A DNA stretch of 19,731 nt from Chloroflexota bacterium (lineage in GTDB: Bacteria > Chloroflexota > Anaerolineae > 4572-78 > J111). Both the position numbers and the translations under genes were made by a program. Below the pieces are notes generated by a model. It was given only the letters and a program-made list of their open reading frames with translations. It was not told where the DNA came from and did not search any database. The stretch's first letter is position 1. The number at the start of each line of letters is the position of its first letter. Below, piece after piece: positions 2,275 through 8,665 of the stretch. The stretch lies in assembly GCA_003695455.1 (NCBI GenBank), contig RFJF01000012.1, forward strand, positions 1 through 19,731. The letters run 5' to 3'.

Positions 2275-3456
2275 TCAGCGGGTCTGAATGTGCATGGGCA
2301 TAATCACGTGAGTAAAATTCTCATCGCCAATGGAACGGAATACGCCCGGGCTGGATGAGGTGCTGGTTTCCAGCGCAAACTGCGGGCTGTCAATGATAGA
2401 CAGAACATCAATGAGATATTTGGCGTTAAAGGCTACCTCCATCGAGTCGCCCTCGATTGAAGCATCAATTTCAGCCACGTTGTCCCCCAGTTCGGCGCTG
2501 GTAGCTACCAGTGTAATGCGCCCGTTCATCAATTCATCGCCACTGGGAGATATTTCCAGCCGCACAATGTTGGCCGAATCGCGGGCAAACAGGTGCGAAA
2601 TTTTGACCGCCTTGAGAAAGTTGGCGGTGTCCAGCACGCTGCGCGTAGAGTATCCCTTTGGAATAATCCGGTTGTAATCCGGAAAATCGCCTTCGATGAG
2701 TTGAGATACCAGTTCAATATCTTGCAGGTGGAATAAAATCTGGCGGCGGCCCGATGTCACAATCAAATCAATGGGTTCTTCCTGTTCACCGGATACCCGC
2801 GCCAGTTCGGTGAGCGCGCGGGCCGGGATAATCAGGCTGGGCGCTTTTGCGCCATTGCCGGCAAGCCCCGCATCTTCCAGCGTGTCGGCAACATTTTGGT
2901 TGAGTACGGCGGACCTCACTGACAGACGAAAGCCGTCGGCGGCGGCCATGGTCAGCTTGTCGGCATCAAATTGCAGCAGCACGCCGGTAAACACCGGGCG
3001 GCTTTCATCGGTGGCGGCGGCAAACACCACCTGTTTAATCATCAGGCGCAGTGATTCGGGGTCGAGCTTAATGGCAACATCGCTGTCAGATGCACTGGCA
3101 ACCACCGGAAACTCTTGTGCGTCAATGCCTTTGATGTTTGATTCAAAGCGGGCGCATCGGAGGTGAAGCGTTTGGGTAGATTCATCCAATTCCATGTCAA
3201 TTCGCTCCGGCGGCAGCGAATTGACAAAATCTGCCAGCAGCCGGGCCGGAATGGTGATGGCTCCTTCCTGTTCAATTTTGGCGCCTACCCAGCAGTTAAT
3301 ACCTAATTCAAAATTGTTGGCCGAAAGTTTCAGCCTGTCGCCATCGGTGGCTAACAACACGTTTGATAAAACAGGTAATGTACTCCGGCTGGCAACCGCG
3401 CGCCCAACAATGCTCAGGCCTTTGGCCAGATTTTCTTGTAAACAGGAAACCTTCAT
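2275..3456 (-). CDS. dnaN: DNA polymerase III subunit beta (sliding clamp)
   Basis: This is the ring-shaped processivity clamp, which encircles DNA and tethers the replicative polymerase and many repair proteins. The 393-residue protein has the three-domain repeat of the family, slightly longer than the usual 365-380. It opens with MKVSCLQENLAKGLSIVGRA. Around residues 29-36 it has the conserved PVLSNVLL segment, and mid-protein AAADGFRLSVR followed by IIPARALTEL. The C-terminus VIMPMHIQTR keeps the terminal MPM(R/H) strand that borders the client-binding pocket. The start ATG at 3456 follows AGAGGTG at suitable spacing. It has its own promoter (3528-3556) loaded with palindromes. dnaA and recF are not adjacent; the upstream neighbour is an unrelated surface protein. 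Confidence 0.98.
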   Translation of the reverse strand: MKVSCLQENLAKGLSIVGRAVASRSTLPVLSNVLLATDGDRLKLSANNFELGINCWVGAKIEQEGAITIPARLLADFVNSLPPERIDMELDESTQTLHLRCARFESNIKGIDAQEFPVVASASDSDVAIKLDPESLRLMIKQVVFAAATDESRPVFTGVLLQFDADKLTMAAADGFRLSVRSAVLNQNVADTLEDAGLAGNGAKAPSLIIPARALTELARVSGEQEEPIDLIVTSGRRQILFHLQDIELVSQLIEGDFPDYNRIIPKGYSTRSVLDTANFLKAVKISHLFARDSANIVRLEISPSGDELMNGRITLVATSAELGDNVAEIDASIEGDSMEVAFNAKYLIDVLSIIDSPQFALETSTSSSPGVFRSIGDENFTHVIMPMHIQTR

Positions 3457-3631: not shown

Positions 3632-5128
3632 CTACGCGTCTTTTCTGTGGGTTAGCAAGCCAACGGCTGCGGCTGCGGTAACCACCAGCAGCAACAGCCC
3701 GCCCATCACCAGAATTCCCTGCGCGGCAGGCCGGGCCAATATGCCGCCGGAGTTGGGCAATCCGGCGTCCTCCCCGGCGGGTGAGCCGTCGGCGGCGGGT
3801 TGTTCTGCGGCGGGCGGGTTGGCTGTTGACTGGACAACACCCGGCTGCGGCCCCACCAACATAACGTCATCAATATCCATGTTGAGTTCAACCTGGGTGG
3901 GGAATTTTTTCAGCCCGCGAATAAACAGGGTAATTTTGCTGGAGTCTGCGGTGCGAACCGTACCGGTAATTCGCTCGTAAAAGAGGGGTTCATCATCCAG
4001 AAATGCGCCACTGACAGACCCCAACCGGTTTTGCTCGGTCAGCGGCATCAGGTTCCATTCGGTCACGTTGTCGTAATTGCCTTCGCCCAGCGGGTCAATA
4101 CCCCAGTGCATTTCAACTTCGTCGGTGTTGCGCGATTCTTTGTTGGCGTCGCTGCGCATAATGGCGTACAGCACCAGCGCATATTCTGAATTGGGAACCA
4201 CATCTACCGTTTGATGAATTGCCATCACCCGGTCCAAAACGGTGGGGTCATCGTGCAGAAAAATTTCCATCAGTTGGGCGCGCTCGCCGCTGCGAACGGC
4301 CTCGGGCCAGGTTTCTTCATACCAGCCAAAGTGGGCGCGCCCGTTGTCGTAGGCTTCCCATTCGGGGGCTACGGCCTCGTGGGCGCCAAACGGAATTTCA
4401 AAATCTCCGTTGCGAATGACATTGAAGCCGGTGGGGTCGGTGGCGGCAGGGCTAACGCCTCCCTGTCCCGGCTGAATGGGGGGCACAAATCCCGGAGTTT
4501 GCCCGGCAGCGGAAATCAGGCCGGAGGGATCGCCGGAGTTTTCAGTCAGACGCACGTCAATTTCAACCGGGTTTTGCCAGATTGCGGTGCGCCCCAGTTG
4601 CTCCTGGTCTGCATTGCTGCCCAGAATGAGCCGCCCGGATATGCTCACGGTATCTGAGCCGCCGACCGACGTCACAGCGCCGGGGTCCAGATTTCCCCTG
4701 AAGATGGAGATTTCCCGCTCTCCCTGGTTAACAATGCTAACTGAAATATCGGCTTTGCCCTCAAAAAATATATTGTTGAGTTGGTCCAGCCCCTGCCCGG
4801 AGCCGGAACCCACAATTGTTTTTCCGCCGTCCGCATGGGGGGTTTCGGTGTATTTAAAATCGCCGCCACTGGCATCGGCGGCGGCTTTCAACTGCTTGGC
4901 CCACTGACTGTAGCGCTCAACGCTTGCATCGCCGGCATCCATTGAGCCGGCCACCGCCGGCGATAACTCAAGCTCTACCCGGCCTTCCCATTGAGCGTTA
5001 GCGTACAGCGTAACCTGCACATCGGTTGTGGCAGCGCCGGGTAATTGAAACAATACCAACGCGCTCAGCACAGCCAGCGCGCCAAGCAGTTTTTCAGACG
5101 CATTTGCGGTGAACAAAAAGGTTAACAT
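3632..5128 (-). CDS. Secreted surface protein with an LPNSG sortase-like C-terminal signal
   Basis: This 498-residue exported protein starts with a hydrophobic segment (about 14-34) that could be a signal peptide or anchor. Residues 36-200 are beta-rich, with a pattern (WAKQLKAAADASGGDF, then GLDQLNNIFF, then SIFRGNLDP) that reminds me of LppM/DUF3153-type lipoprotein domains; this is a weak resemblance. A Pro/Gly linker (about 208-232) leads to a beta-sandwich beginning NVIRNGDFE (237-244), the typical opening of carbohydrate-binding-module-like jelly-roll domains. A Pro/Ala-rich spacer follows, then LPNSG (457-461), a membrane segment (about 471-492) and a basic tail HRKDA. That is the layout of a sortase substrate, with Ser in place of Thr. 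The start has AAGGAGG 6 nt upstream. It is monocistronic, with promoter 5192-5220 and terminator 3582-3619. A role in binding surface polysaccharide is inferred. Confidence 0.7.
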   Translation of the reverse strand: MLTFLFTANASEKLLGALAVLSALVLFQLPGAATTDVQVTLYANAQWEGRVELELSPAVAGSMDAGDASVERYSQWAKQLKAAADASGGDFKYTETPHADGGKTIVGSGSGQGLDQLNNIFFEGKADISVSIVNQGEREISIFRGNLDPGAVTSVGGSDTVSISGRLILGSNADQEQLGRTAIWQNPVEIDVRLTENSGDPSGLISAAGQTPGFVPPIQPGQGGVSPAATDPTGFNVIRNGDFEIPFGAHEAVAPEWEAYDNGRAHFGWYEETWPEAVRSGERAQLMEIFLHDDPTVLDRVMAIHQTVDVVPNSEYALVLYAIMRSDANKESRNTDEVEMHWGIDPLGEGNYDNVTEWNLMPLTEQNRLGSVSGAFLDDEPLFYERITGTVRTADSSKITLFIRGLKKFPTQVELNMDIDDVMLVGPQPGVVQSTANPPAAEQPAADGSPAGEDAGLPNSGGILARPAAQGILVMGGLLLLVVTAAAAVGLLTHRKDA

Positions 5129-5305: not shown

Positions 5306-6217
5306 TCAGGCCGGAGTTTGTACCGGGGTTTTGAAATCGTAAATGCCGCCGGCAAATGACCAGCCCCGGCGACATTGATGGCAGGTTAGCACAAACTCGC
5401 TGTCCGAGCGGCGCCCGGTGACGGCCAGTGCGGCGGACTTGCAGGTGGGGCAGCGAAAGAAGCCGGCGGGCGATTCTGGCGGCGCCGGCTTTTGGGCCTG
5501 GGCCTGCAAAAACACGCTGGGGGCAAGCTGCCACCACCGGCCGGTGGGCTGGGCCAGGCTGTCAAGCCGCACCAACAGCCAGGTAGGCAGCCAACGTTTG
5601 AGAACGTCAATGCGGTAGTGCGACAGCGTACGAATTTTCTGCACCGGCAGGCCGGCTTCCGCAAACTGGCGGCGCATCCAGGCCGGGTGAAAATTAAAAT
5701 TCAGTTCGACAAATTCAATGGGGGCGGGGTCAAAAGGACTCCAATCCTGCCGCCCCAAAGTCCAGCGGGCAATCGCCTTGAGGTTAAGTTTGTTGGCGTG
5801 TTCAACAACGGCAATTCCCTGCGGGCGGAGAATTCGCTGGATTTCTGCCAGCGCGCCGGGCACATTGACCAGGTGGTGCATCACCCGTACCATCGTCAAG
5901 GTGTTGAACAGATGGCTGACAAAGGGCAGGTTGTAAACATCGGCCACCACAAAAATAAAGCGGTCATCATGGCCCAGGTAACGCTGGGCTTCTTCCAGTT
6001 GGGTACGGGCGTAATCCAGCAGCACAATCTGGCGGTACCCCTGGTACAAATCAACAAGGCGACCAAAGCCGGCCCCAATTTCAATGAGGTTGTTACCGGT
6101 GGGGGGGAGCAGTTTTTTCATTGCCACCCGTTCCACGGCATCCTCGTATGCGCGGTTGCCGCTTTCCCAGAATTCGCTGCGATACCGGCTGCCTTCGTAA
6201 TCGCAAATTTTTGTCAA
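5306..6217 (-). CDS. Class I SAM-dependent methyltransferase with C-terminal zinc ribbon
   Basis: From a TTG at 6217 the protein is 303 residues. It carries the SAM-binding motif I IEIGAGFGR (45-53), an acidic strand end (VLLDYA) and a post-motif VRVMHHL as in Methyltransf_11-type enzymes. The C-terminus holds a CxxC...CxxC ribbon (Cys256, Cys259, Cys279, Cys282) ending in a Trm112-like GIYDF. The substrate is unknown. It follows a sugar transferase and a glycosyltransferase, so lipid-linked or polysaccharide substrates are plausible. The frame is open to an ATG at 6343, but that start would translate straight through a perfect parS site and has no ribosome site. TTG 6217 is preceded by AAGGA with a 7-nt gap and lies just before the conserved-looking YEGSRYRSEFWE, so I prefer it. 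Confidence 0.8.
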   Translation of the reverse strand: MTKICDYEGSRYRSEFWESGNRAYEDAVERVAMKKLLPPTGNNLIEIGAGFGRLVDLYQGYRQIVLLDYARTQLEEAQRYLGHDDRFIFVVADVYNLPFVSHLFNTLTMVRVMHHLVNVPGALAEIQRILRPQGIAVVEHANKLNLKAIARWTLGRQDWSPFDPAPIEFVELNFNFHPAWMRRQFAEAGLPVQKIRTLSHYRIDVLKRWLPTWLLVRLDSLAQPTGRWWQLAPSVFLQAQAQKPAPPESPAGFFRCPTCKSAALAVTGRRSDSEFVLTCHQCRRGWSFAGGIYDFKTPVQTPA

Positions 6218-6289
6218 TGGTGTTTCCTTACAGGTTTCAGCCAATCCGGCGCAGATGGCGCTATATTTAGTGGGTGGTAAAACAATATT

Positions 6290-6306
6290 ACCCACATTTT
6301 GTGGGT
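6290..6306. repeat. 7-bp inverted repeat beside parS
   Basis: ACCCACA (6290-6296), a 3-nt loop and TGTGGGT (6300-6306) form a perfect dyad that ends 8 bp from parS. Another TGGGT occurs at 6271-6275, and TGGGTGT/ACACCCA (6302-6308 and 6327-6333) flank the parS site in inverted orientation. These could be a small hairpin in the methyltransferase leader or an accessory protein site. Confidence 0.45.
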
Positions 6307-6313
6307 GTGCAGA

Positions 6314-6329
6314 TGTTTCACGTGAAACA
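6314..6329. other. parS centromere site (ParB-binding)
   Basis: The 16-bp sequence TGTTTCACGTGAAACA is a perfect palindrome and matches the bacterial chromosomal parS consensus (TGTTNCACGTGAAACA, defined in Bacillus) at every position. ParB-CTP clamps load at such sites and spread to organise and segregate the origin region. Known parS sites are strongly concentrated near oriC. It sits in the 122-bp non-coding stretch between the sugar-transferase stop and the preferred methyltransferase start, about 2.9 kb from dnaN. No parA or parB is in the window. Confidence 0.93.
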
Positions 6330-6339
6330 CCCAACCACA

Positions 6340-7731
6340 TCAATAGGCGTTGGTATCACTGAAAAGCTGCATAATGGTGCGGATAATAATTCTGAAATCA
6401 AGCGCCAGCGACCAGTTTTCTGTGTACCACAAATCGTATTTTGTTCGTTCAATAATTGACGTATCGCCGCGCAGCCCGTTAATTTGCGCCCAGCCGGTAA
6501 TGCCTGCCTTCTCGCGGTGGCGGTCCATGTACCGGGGAATTGTCTGCCGAAACTGTTCCACAAAAACCGGGCGCTCAGGGCGCGGCCCAACCAGACTCAT
6601 ATCGCCAATCAACACATTGATTAACTGCGGCAATTCATCAATTGAAAAGCGACGAATGAACGTGCCCAGCCGCGTACGCCGGGAGTCATCGGCTGTTGTC
6701 CAAACCGGGCCGGTATCACTTTCGGCGTCAGGGCGCATCGAACGGAATTTAAGCATCATAAAGCGCTTGCCATCCAACCCCATGCGTTCCTGCGTGTAAA
6801 AAACCGCCCCTTCAGAATCAAGTTTGATTAACACCGCCAGCAGCATCATAATTGGCGACAGCAGCACCAACCCAATGGCGCTGCCAACCACGTCAATCAC
6901 CCGCTTCAGCGTGAGCTGCCAGCCGCGCATTGCCGTATCACGTACGGTCAACAGCGGCAACCCACCCAAATCGCCAATGGTTACTTCGCTGGCCATAATT
7001 TGGAACACATCCGGAAAAACCTTGATGGCAACCTTGCCCCGGTCACACTTGCTGACAATTTTCAGCGTTTCCTGATGGGTGGCTTCCGGCATGGCAATGA
7101 TGACTTCGTTTATGTTTTCAGTAGCAATAATGTCCGGAATATCGTCTGTATTCCCCAATACCGGCACACCGTGGATAGCCTTGACCGCGGCGTGGTCATC
7201 CACAAAACCAACCACCCGGTAGCCCAGTTCCGGCGAACGTTGAATTTTCTGCATCACAATCCGGCCTACTTCGCCGGTGCCTACAATCAACACCCGCTCA
7301 TCTCCCCAATCCCGCGCCTGTAATGAGCGCTGCACCCTGGACTGCACAGTTCGCCCAACGGCTGTAAACAGAATGGTCAAAATCCAGACATATACCATCA
7401 TCAACCGGGGGTAATCCAGTTGATTCTTGAAGAAGAATGAAATAAATGCAATAGCGATGATAGTGCCTACCGACGCCGCACCAAAAATCGAATAAAACTG
7501 GTCCACATACGATAGCGAACGCTGGCGATGATAAAGCCGGTAAAAGAAAAACACAACCAGAATTGACACAGTATGCACCAGCGCCATGCCAATGTAATTA
7601 GAAAACGGCAAAATATTTTCAAACTCAGACCGGAGCCGCAACTGGTACCCCACATAAAATGCCAGCCCGGTCATCACCGAATCAATAATAACCAGTGAAA
7701 GCGTAAACCACAGACGTGCACGTTTCTTCAT
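6340..7731 (-). CDS. Polyprenyl-phosphate sugar-1-phosphate transferase (WcaJ/WbaP type)
   Basis: This initiating enzyme of surface polysaccharide synthesis transfers a sugar-1-phosphate from a nucleotide sugar to undecaprenyl phosphate at the inner membrane face. The 463 residues have the full family layout: four N-terminal membrane spans within about 8-125, a Rossmann-like domain (GTGEVGR at 151-157, about 140-250), then the catalytic bacterial sugar transferase domain (about 273-463) with its membrane hairpin (285-303). The catalytic domain carries KRVIDVVGSAIGL, FRSMRPDAE (329-337), DELPQL (365-370), VGPRPERP (381-388) and QINGLRGDT (416-424). The sugar specificity cannot be read from the sequence. 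The start has GGAGGTG and lies only 1 nt after the stop of the upstream glycosyltransferase, so the two are coupled. Confidence 0.95.
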   Translation of the reverse strand: MKKRARLWFTLSLVIIDSVMTGLAFYVGYQLRLRSEFENILPFSNYIGMALVHTVSILVVFFFYRLYHRQRSLSYVDQFYSIFGAASVGTIIAIAFISFFFKNQLDYPRLMMVYVWILTILFTAVGRTVQSRVQRSLQARDWGDERVLIVGTGEVGRIVMQKIQRSPELGYRVVGFVDDHAAVKAIHGVPVLGNTDDIPDIIATENINEVIIAMPEATHQETLKIVSKCDRGKVAIKVFPDVFQIMASEVTIGDLGGLPLLTVRDTAMRGWQLTLKRVIDVVGSAIGLVLLSPIMMLLAVLIKLDSEGAVFYTQERMGLDGKRFMMLKFRSMRPDAESDTGPVWTTADDSRRTRLGTFIRRFSIDELPQLINVLIGDMSLVGPRPERPVFVEQFRQTIPRYMDRHREKAGITGWAQINGLRGDTSIIERTKYDLWYTENWSLALDFRIIIRTIMQLFSDTNAY

Positions 7732-7732
7732 G

Positions 7733-8665
7733 CTACACCTCCGCCGTTTGCTTCTTTTTTTGTTGCTGTTCCAATTTTTGGGCGCGCAGCTTCAATTGGG
7801 TCATTTTGCGTTTGAGATTAATACCAAAAAGAATCAGGCCATTCAACCAAAACGGGGTTGTACCGGCATAATACTTGTGATAAAAAATTTCCATGGCCCG
7901 GTAAAACTCAAGTTGCGCCTTGGGGCTGCGCCGACTGGCGGCCCGTTTTACATGTGTTACAGTTACTGCCGGGTTGTAAAAAATTTTCCATCCGTGGGCC
8001 TTTATCTGGTAGGCCCAATCAAGGTCCTCACCGTACATAAAGTAAGTTTCATCCAGCAGGCCAGCCTGGGCAATTGCCTCCCGCCGAACCATCATAAACG
8101 CCCCCACCAACGCATCAACTTCCAGCAATTCATCCGGGTCAGCAAAAGTCATGTTGTAGCGCCCAAACACCCGGCTCCGGGGAAACAATTTTGACAGTCC
8201 TACCATCCGGTAAAAGCTGACCTGTGGCGTTGGAAATGACCGCCGGCATGCCAAATCCAGACTCCCGTCCGGGCGCACCAGTTTTGGGCCGGCTGCGCCA
8301 ATATCGGGGTGGTCATCCAAAAATTGAACCATCTCTGCCAGTGCGCCCGGTGGCAGCACTGTATCCGGGTTGAGCAACAGGGCATAGCGCGGCGCATTTG
8401 CCCCGGGCGTGCCATCGGCGGCAAAGCCCGCCTGCTTCAGACCCAGATTATTGGCAAAAGAAAAGCCGCCATTCACGCTGCTGGCAATCAGTGCAACTTG
8501 CGGAAATTCAGACTGCACCATAGCCACACTGCCGTCCGGCGAGTTGTTATCAACCACAATCACATTAAATGTGATATCCCCCTCGCTCCGATAAATAGAG
8601 TTGAGGCAATCTTGCAATAATTTACAGGTATTATAATTTACAATTACAATTGATAAGTCAACCAT
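7733..8665 (-). CDS. Family 2 glycosyltransferase (WbbL/rhamnosyltransferase-like)
   Basis: This 310-residue cytoplasmic GT-A enzyme probably adds a sugar, perhaps rhamnose, to a lipid-linked or polysaccharide acceptor. It shows SIVIVNYNT (5-13), VVDNNSPDGS (37-46) for nucleotide binding, NGGFSFANNLGL (65-76), LLLNPDT (97-102) as the metal-binding DxD-equivalent, and YGEDLDW (211-217) as the catalytic-base motif. All are typical of the WbbL-like branch. It ends in a basic helical tail. The gene is the first of a three-gene set with the sugar transferase (1-nt gap) and methyltransferase. ATG 8665 has no clear Shine-Dalgarno and lies just after a terminator, so its promoter is not obvious. Confidence 0.93.
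   Translation of the reverse strand: MVDLSIVIVNYNTCKLLQDCLNSIYRSEGDITFNVIVVDNNSPDGSVAMVQSEFPQVALIASSVNGGFSFANNLGLKQAGFAADGTPGANAPRYALLLNPDTVLPPGALAEMVQFLDDHPDIGAAGPKLVRPDGSLDLACRRSFPTPQVSFYRMVGLSKLFPRSRVFGRYNMTFADPDELLEVDALVGAFMMVRREAIAQAGLLDETYFMYGEDLDWAYQIKAHGWKIFYNPAVTVTHVKRAASRRSPKAQLEFYRAMEIFYHKYYAGTTPFWLNGLILFGINLKRKMTQLKLRAQKLEQQQKKKQTAEV

Follow-up and report, generated by a model that had tools for sequence, protein, structure and literature searches.

The closest described systems are the chromosomal ParABS systems of Bacillus subtilis (where ParB is Spo0J) and Caulobacter, which combine a Bacillus-type 16-mer with a canonical ParB and a ParA, often near replication genes. In such model bacteria, a ParB dimer binds parS, with one helix-turn-helix per half-site, and slides to neighbouring DNA as a CTP-dependent clamp; ParA moves the ParB-parS complex, SMC is recruited and the replicated origins are pulled apart. 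The locus considered here, in a window of 19,731 nucleotides (i.e. the whole stretch of DNA analysed) from a draft Chloroflexota genome, is alike in these components. It differs in that one site was found, that parAB does not adjoin it, and that a methyltransferase other than RsmG does. A narrow literature search reached no title on parS in this phylum.

Two further systems invite comparison. The gidA-gidB(rsmG)-parA-parB cluster resembles the arrangement of some members of the class, in which a methyltransferase lies by parAB and parS-like sites. The methyltransferase of the window, however, matches Methyltransf_11/UbiE-type models, and no RsmG model was found among its NCBIfam/Pfam matches (E<=0.001), so that an rsmG-parAB cluster was ruled out; in the window's order, moreover, the cluster is dispersed. 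Noc is likewise a ParB-family protein with short palindromic sites, but its site differs in sequence. The ParB of the window's genome has R173, T179, N184 and G201 where Noc has Q, K, K and R, at the positions that separate ParB from Noc; a Noc binding site was ruled out, as the cognate protein lacks the Noc-type residues (R173, G201).

Our reading, to which we give a probability of about 0.88, is that the site would be the chromosomal centromere parS, a putative relic of a former parAB-methyltransferase cluster. The features of the window that bear on this reading are as follows.

2275..3456, minus strand: dnaN, DNA polymerase III beta clamp, 2.86 kb from parS
3632..5128, minus strand: 498-aa protein with no Pfam/NCBIfam match, between dnaN and the methyltransferase
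5306..6217, minus strand: SAM-dependent methyltransferase (Methyltransf_11) with a C-terminal four-cysteine region, constant parS neighbour in the order; putative TTG start at 6217
6290..6306, minus strand: weak hairpin of terminator type, lying between parS and the methyltransferase; such sites are not enriched in the region over shuffles
6314..6329, no strand: candidate parS TGTTTCACGTGAAACA, unique in the draft and present in 18/18 order genomes with the methyltransferase 5' flank assembled
6340..7731, minus strand: undecaprenyl-phosphate sugar phosphotransferase (EPS_sugtrans/WcaJ type), variable parS neighbour
7733..8665, minus strand: family 2 glycosyltransferase

The site occupies an intergenic gap, 10 bases past the sugar transferase stop and 96 bases ahead of the probable TTG start of the methyltransferase (6217); the 345-aa open reading frame listed at 5306-6343, which spans it, is probably an over-extended frame. 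Neither dnaA, parA nor parB was recognised in the window, and all three are found on other contigs of the genome. Part of the 498-aa protein recurs near the methyltransferase in many genomes of the order.

At positions 6314-6329, TGTTTCACGTGAAACA is a perfect, strand-less 16-bp palindrome that agrees with the Bacillus-type parS consensus at 16/16 positions. It remains the single match in the window even with up to 3 mismatches allowed, whereas 11/200 shuffled windows give a match as loose as 3 mismatches. Across the draft genome (4,378,693 bases in 929 contigs), it is the sole place at 0-1 mismatch; the draft being 87% complete, more copies may exist beyond this one. Four additional places appear at 2 mismatches, a number that does not exceed the reversed-pattern control, and they were dropped as candidate further copies. 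As far as the draft shows, the chromosome-segregation parS is thus a single site. With the window's composition, 0.0006 exact copies would be expected in a genome of this size, and a chance match is ruled out by this rarity together with the conservation described below. The first-pass annotation had described a perfect palindrome matching Bacillus-type parS throughout, expected by chance far less than once per genome, in a window with dnaN about 2.9 kb away and devoid of dnaA, parA and parB; each of these points was borne out. It had also regarded many scattered copies or the lack of a ParB homologue as grounds for doubt: copies are not scattered, and a canonical ParB and a ParA are encoded on another contig. 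With ParB and ParA in the genome, the 16-mer rare and the site kept in 18/18 order genomes, its identification of parS is strongly supported, and by the available comparative tests we regard TGTTTCACGTGAAACA as very probably a real parS.

The partner proteins were sought with TIGR00180 and Pfam models. The canonical ParB of the window's genome (294 aa) adjoins ParA on G000:C100, and genes of the YidC and Jag families lie 1-3 kb upstream. This ParB has all three Pfam ParB domains, and its best match among solved structures is to a chromosomal ParB (5e-58). Wherever a single match to the main ParB of an order genome spans both positions (21 genomes), R173 and G201 are present, and they are also found in the fuller of two ParB fragments of G007; G058, G053 and G044, which belong to the wider class, differ from G at position 201. 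The TIGR00180 search matched 27/29 genomes (26 above the cut-off), with nothing in G013 and G021 and a weak match in G019, though the latter has parS. In a second set of 18 genomes (16 of the wider class), 14 matched, 13 of them above the cut-off, and G026, G463 and again G013 and G021 gave no match. These missing matches, and the weak one of G019, perhaps reflect incompleteness. The parB gene lies 415 kb from parS in G018 and on another large contig in G001, G006 and G010.

Exact parS was found in 18/25 genomes of the order (window's own genome counted), in all 18 directly 5' of the same methyltransferase ortholog and 21-263 bases from its ICDYE codons. Six of the seven genomes without the site have no methyltransferase ortholog (i.e. 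general, weak methyltransferase matches only), and in the seventh, G021, the methyltransferase starts at base 9 of its contig, the 5' flank being missing; the count is therefore 18/18, since all order genomes with a readable methyltransferase 5' flank have the site. Among the site-less genomes, G005 has neither the methyltransferase ortholog nor dnaN, a pattern expected of a local assembly gap, while in G003, G022 and G024 dnaN is present and parS and the methyltransferase are absent, a combination that fits an assembly gap only if that gap is local. In the 18 aligned rows, all 16 parS letters are identical and the 40-base flanks, averaging 0.39 and 0.42 majority, are at background level of conservation, although 14/16 positions were fixed by the search pattern, so that the gene-side count of 18/18 is the fairer figure. 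The check in relatives proposed by the first-pass annotation thus came out in favour of the site.

The neighbour on the other side varies within the order, i.e. a sugar transferase, a glycosyltransferase or genes without counterpart in the window. In G001, 16 genes follow the same order as in the window. The first-pass annotation had placed parS in a polysaccharide operon: a sugar transferase does adjoin it, but that neighbour varies and the constant one is the methyltransferase. Because the sugar-transferase neighbour differs among relatives, the polysaccharide-gene setting is incidental. Multiple sites were found in G011 (three), G020 (two) and G002 (two). In G002, the sugar transferase is parted from the methyltransferase and each has a parS (L194 1511, L195 7600), the second at the sugar transferase end, much as a duplication of the site at the break would have left them.

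The pattern TGTTNCACGTGNAACA was found in 37/61 relatives against 1/61 for the reversed control. In samples of the class (<=1 mismatch) and of the phylum (exact site), parS was present in 79/120 and 149/400 genomes, respectively, against 6/120 for the class controls and control columns of 0 throughout for the phylum. The pattern is present in 19 of the 36 class genomes G025-G060 and adjoins the methyltransferase (within about 300 bases) in 13 of these 19 (G025, G029, G032, G041, G043, G045, G046, G052, G053, G054, G055, G059 and G060, the last having parS on the methyltransferase's 3' side). It is not adjacent in G027, G034, G050, G056 and G057, and no methyltransferase was found in G033. For the 17 pattern-negative class genomes, the methyltransferase locus was obtained in 13. 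A one-mismatch site lies just 5' of the gene in G030, G039, G040 and G049, just 3' of it in G038 and inside it in G037; G026, G031 and G035 have an asymmetric site just 5' of it; no site was seen at the methyltransferase locus of G028, G042, G058 and G051 (the last at a contig edge). From the methyltransferase alignment, 3 of the 16 chosen rows were omitted: L203 (reported stop in range), L210 and L034. The methyltransferase profile finds nothing at E <= 1e-25 in 17 site-bearing genomes of other classes, and the parS-methyltransferase link is therefore at most class-wide. In the phylum sample, some genomes have many exact copies (e.g. G182 22, G384 27, G400 29 and G142 18), as noticed in families f51, f58 and f108 and in G142; exact parS is absent from the sampled f48 and f59 members and from most of f29 and f61.

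So constant a position, 21-263 bases from the ICDYE codons of the same gene in 18/18 order genomes, is also what would be seen if the palindrome were an operator through which a regulator, or ParB itself, controlled the methyltransferase instead of or besides segregation. Variant sites in the same 5' place in other families fit such an operator, and a neutral link might break more often, but selection may simply disfavour breaks within the short 5' flank. We consider the operator quite improbable, given that the sequence equals the parS of many bacterial phyla (at least 118 stretches) and stands beside parAB in some class members, that parS follows the methyltransferase in G060, that the second copy of G002 lies at a sugar transferase without methyltransferase, and that site and gene are apart in five class genomes.

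A role in RNA, either as a hairpin or within a terminator downstream of the sugar-transferase gene, would account for the folding of the minus-strand transcript (-21.8 kcal/mol, z -3.5, 0/200 shuffles as good) and for the terminator-like hairpin that follows. A hairpin, however, requires pairing and not fixed letters, whereas the parS letters are kept and the flanks are not; the asymmetric variant of other families disrupts the pairing, the genes on the other side vary between genomes, and terminator-like sites number 5 in the region against 4.0 in shuffles, which leaves this role highly improbable. Finally, additional ParB-like genes in these genomes could suggest that the site came with an integrated plasmid or element having its own ParABS; with no parAB or mobile gene recognised near parS in the window, the window's gene order shared with G001 over 16 genes, and vertical conservation in 18 genomes beside the same gene throughout the order, we hold this origin to be exceedingly improbable.

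The reading of the site as a chromosomal centromere left by a former cluster is consistent with arrangements found outside the order. A parA-parB-methyltransferase cluster occurs in four such class members (G035, G056, G060 and G456). In G056 and G060, dnaN comes next after parA-parB-methyltransferase; the parS of G060 falls between the last two of these genes, and that of G056 is 40 kb away. In G035 and G456, the order is parA-parB, two asymmetric sites and methyltransferase, the inner asymmetric site of G456 sharing 8 bases with the beginning of the methyltransferase match. The methyltransferase also adjoins dnaN in G031, G040, G057 and G059. An ancestor may thus have had parA-parB and parS together with the methyltransferase and dnaN; parAB would later have left the cluster (it stands beside yidC-jag in the window's genome), parS would have remained at the methyltransferase 5' flank, and surface-polysaccharide genes would have come to occupy its other side. 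The present position of parS would then be due to parAB having moved while parS stayed by the methyltransferase. Judging from these gene orders, descent of the placement from a parAB-methyltransferase-dnaN cluster is likely; we infer both the ancestry and the direction of rearrangement, a tree of 47 methyltransferases giving no proof of direction.

By analogy with model bacteria, we infer that the ParB encoded on G000:C100 would bind the window parS, load as a CTP-dependent clamp and slide, and that ParA would move the parS complex and SMC would be recruited, leading to the separation of replicated origins. In a group whose dnaA, dnaN and parAB are often scattered, the site could serve as a sequence marker of the segregation origin, and its persistence suggests that centromeres can survive the dispersal of the operon to which they belonged. 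Together, canonical, one-letter variant, asymmetric and relocated relatives form a set for the study of ParB-parS co-evolution and of a possible methyltransferase link.

The asymmetric parS-like 16-mer TGTAAAACGTGAAACA lies just 5' of the methyltransferase in G026, G031, G035, G453 and G456 (loci L386, L387 and L389-L394). These five genomes belong to three class families and lack any canonical site at <=1 mismatch. It also occurs after parB in G035 and G456, and two copies, 38-93 bases apart, are present in G035, G453 and G456. The pattern TGTAAAACGTKWWACA was found in 6/120 class genomes against 2/120 for the control; in the sixth genome, G030, the match lies elsewhere and differs by one letter. 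In the tree of 47 methyltransferases, 17 forks are open and the origins of the asymmetric site are not countable; the asymmetric group there comprises 4 genomes, G456 having been left out. A bolder interpretation would be a lasting centromere-methyltransferase unit, in which ParB at parS controls, or is served by, the methyltransferase, with three families having an asymmetric centromere made of a TGTAAAAC half-site and a canonical half-site, i.e. a drift of centromere specificity caught in place. We consider it unlikely; against an altered specificity, the four ParBs from asymmetric-site genomes retain R173 and G201, the TIGR00180 search giving no ParB in G026.

The first-pass annotation had also taken the window to be probably origin-proximal. 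In support, dnaN lies 1.3-3.5 kb from parS in 8/18 order genomes (G000, G001, G006, G009, G010, G015, G017 and G020), and dnaA lies at 6.6, 6.2, 2.7 and 18.5 kb in G006, G010, G018 and G001, the four with both on one contig. On the other side, at least 6/18 are without dnaN at this place: it is 1.25 Mb from parS in G018, and the 6 kb or more assembled on the side of the methyltransferase contain none in G002, G004, G008, G012 and G014. In G007, G011, G016 and G019, the contig ends too early for dnaN linkage. Moreover, G012 and G014 have dnaA on another contig than parS, at a depth of 97 and 39 kb, respectively, and skew within the order was uninformative. Origin proximity is supported in part, and a location of parS in the origin region seems probable.

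Among one-contig genomes of the class, dnaA and parS are 0.88 Mb apart in G034, 1.8 Mb in G050 and 0.82 Mb in G053; dnaN is 6.2 kb from parS in G050 and parB 85 kb from it in G053. Skew was sampled in 20 stretches of 20 kb in G175, G034, G050, G018 and G006, covering about a tenth of each genome (for G006 its contig C1, a fifth), and G053 was left out; the p values come from several tests, uncorrected, with data and shuffles on equal grids. G018 gave no origin signal (GC p 0.93, TA p 0.40) and G006, tabulated without test, no clear switch. The best GC-skew origin of G175, a genome of another class, falls 0.10 Mb from parS, with dnaN 1.66 Mb off (p 0.023; TA p 0.16). GC skew places the origin of G034 at 0.10 Mb from parS, with dnaA 0.98 Mb off (p 0.013), and TA skew (p 0.0044) points to another place, 0.54 Mb from parS, 0.20 Mb from dnaN and 0.33 Mb from dnaA. 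For G050, the skew origin is 0.21 Mb (GC, p 0.12) or 0.01 Mb (TA, p 0.040) from parS, with dnaA 1.8-2.0 Mb off. These values, from few genomes, several tests and coarse sampling, are a hint that the origin can be marked by parS in genomes whose dnaA has been relocated.

In 12/25 order genomes, a weak ParB-like match, in an open frame of about 330-580 aa, is accompanied at a distance of about 1-4 kb by a protein whose single match is to the DnaA N-terminal domain. The pair of the window's genome is on C689 (219-440 and 4781-4930), and similar pairs occur in G002, G003, G004, G005, G006, G008, G010, G011, G015, G017 and G019; they are possibly replication and partition pairs of plasmid or element type.
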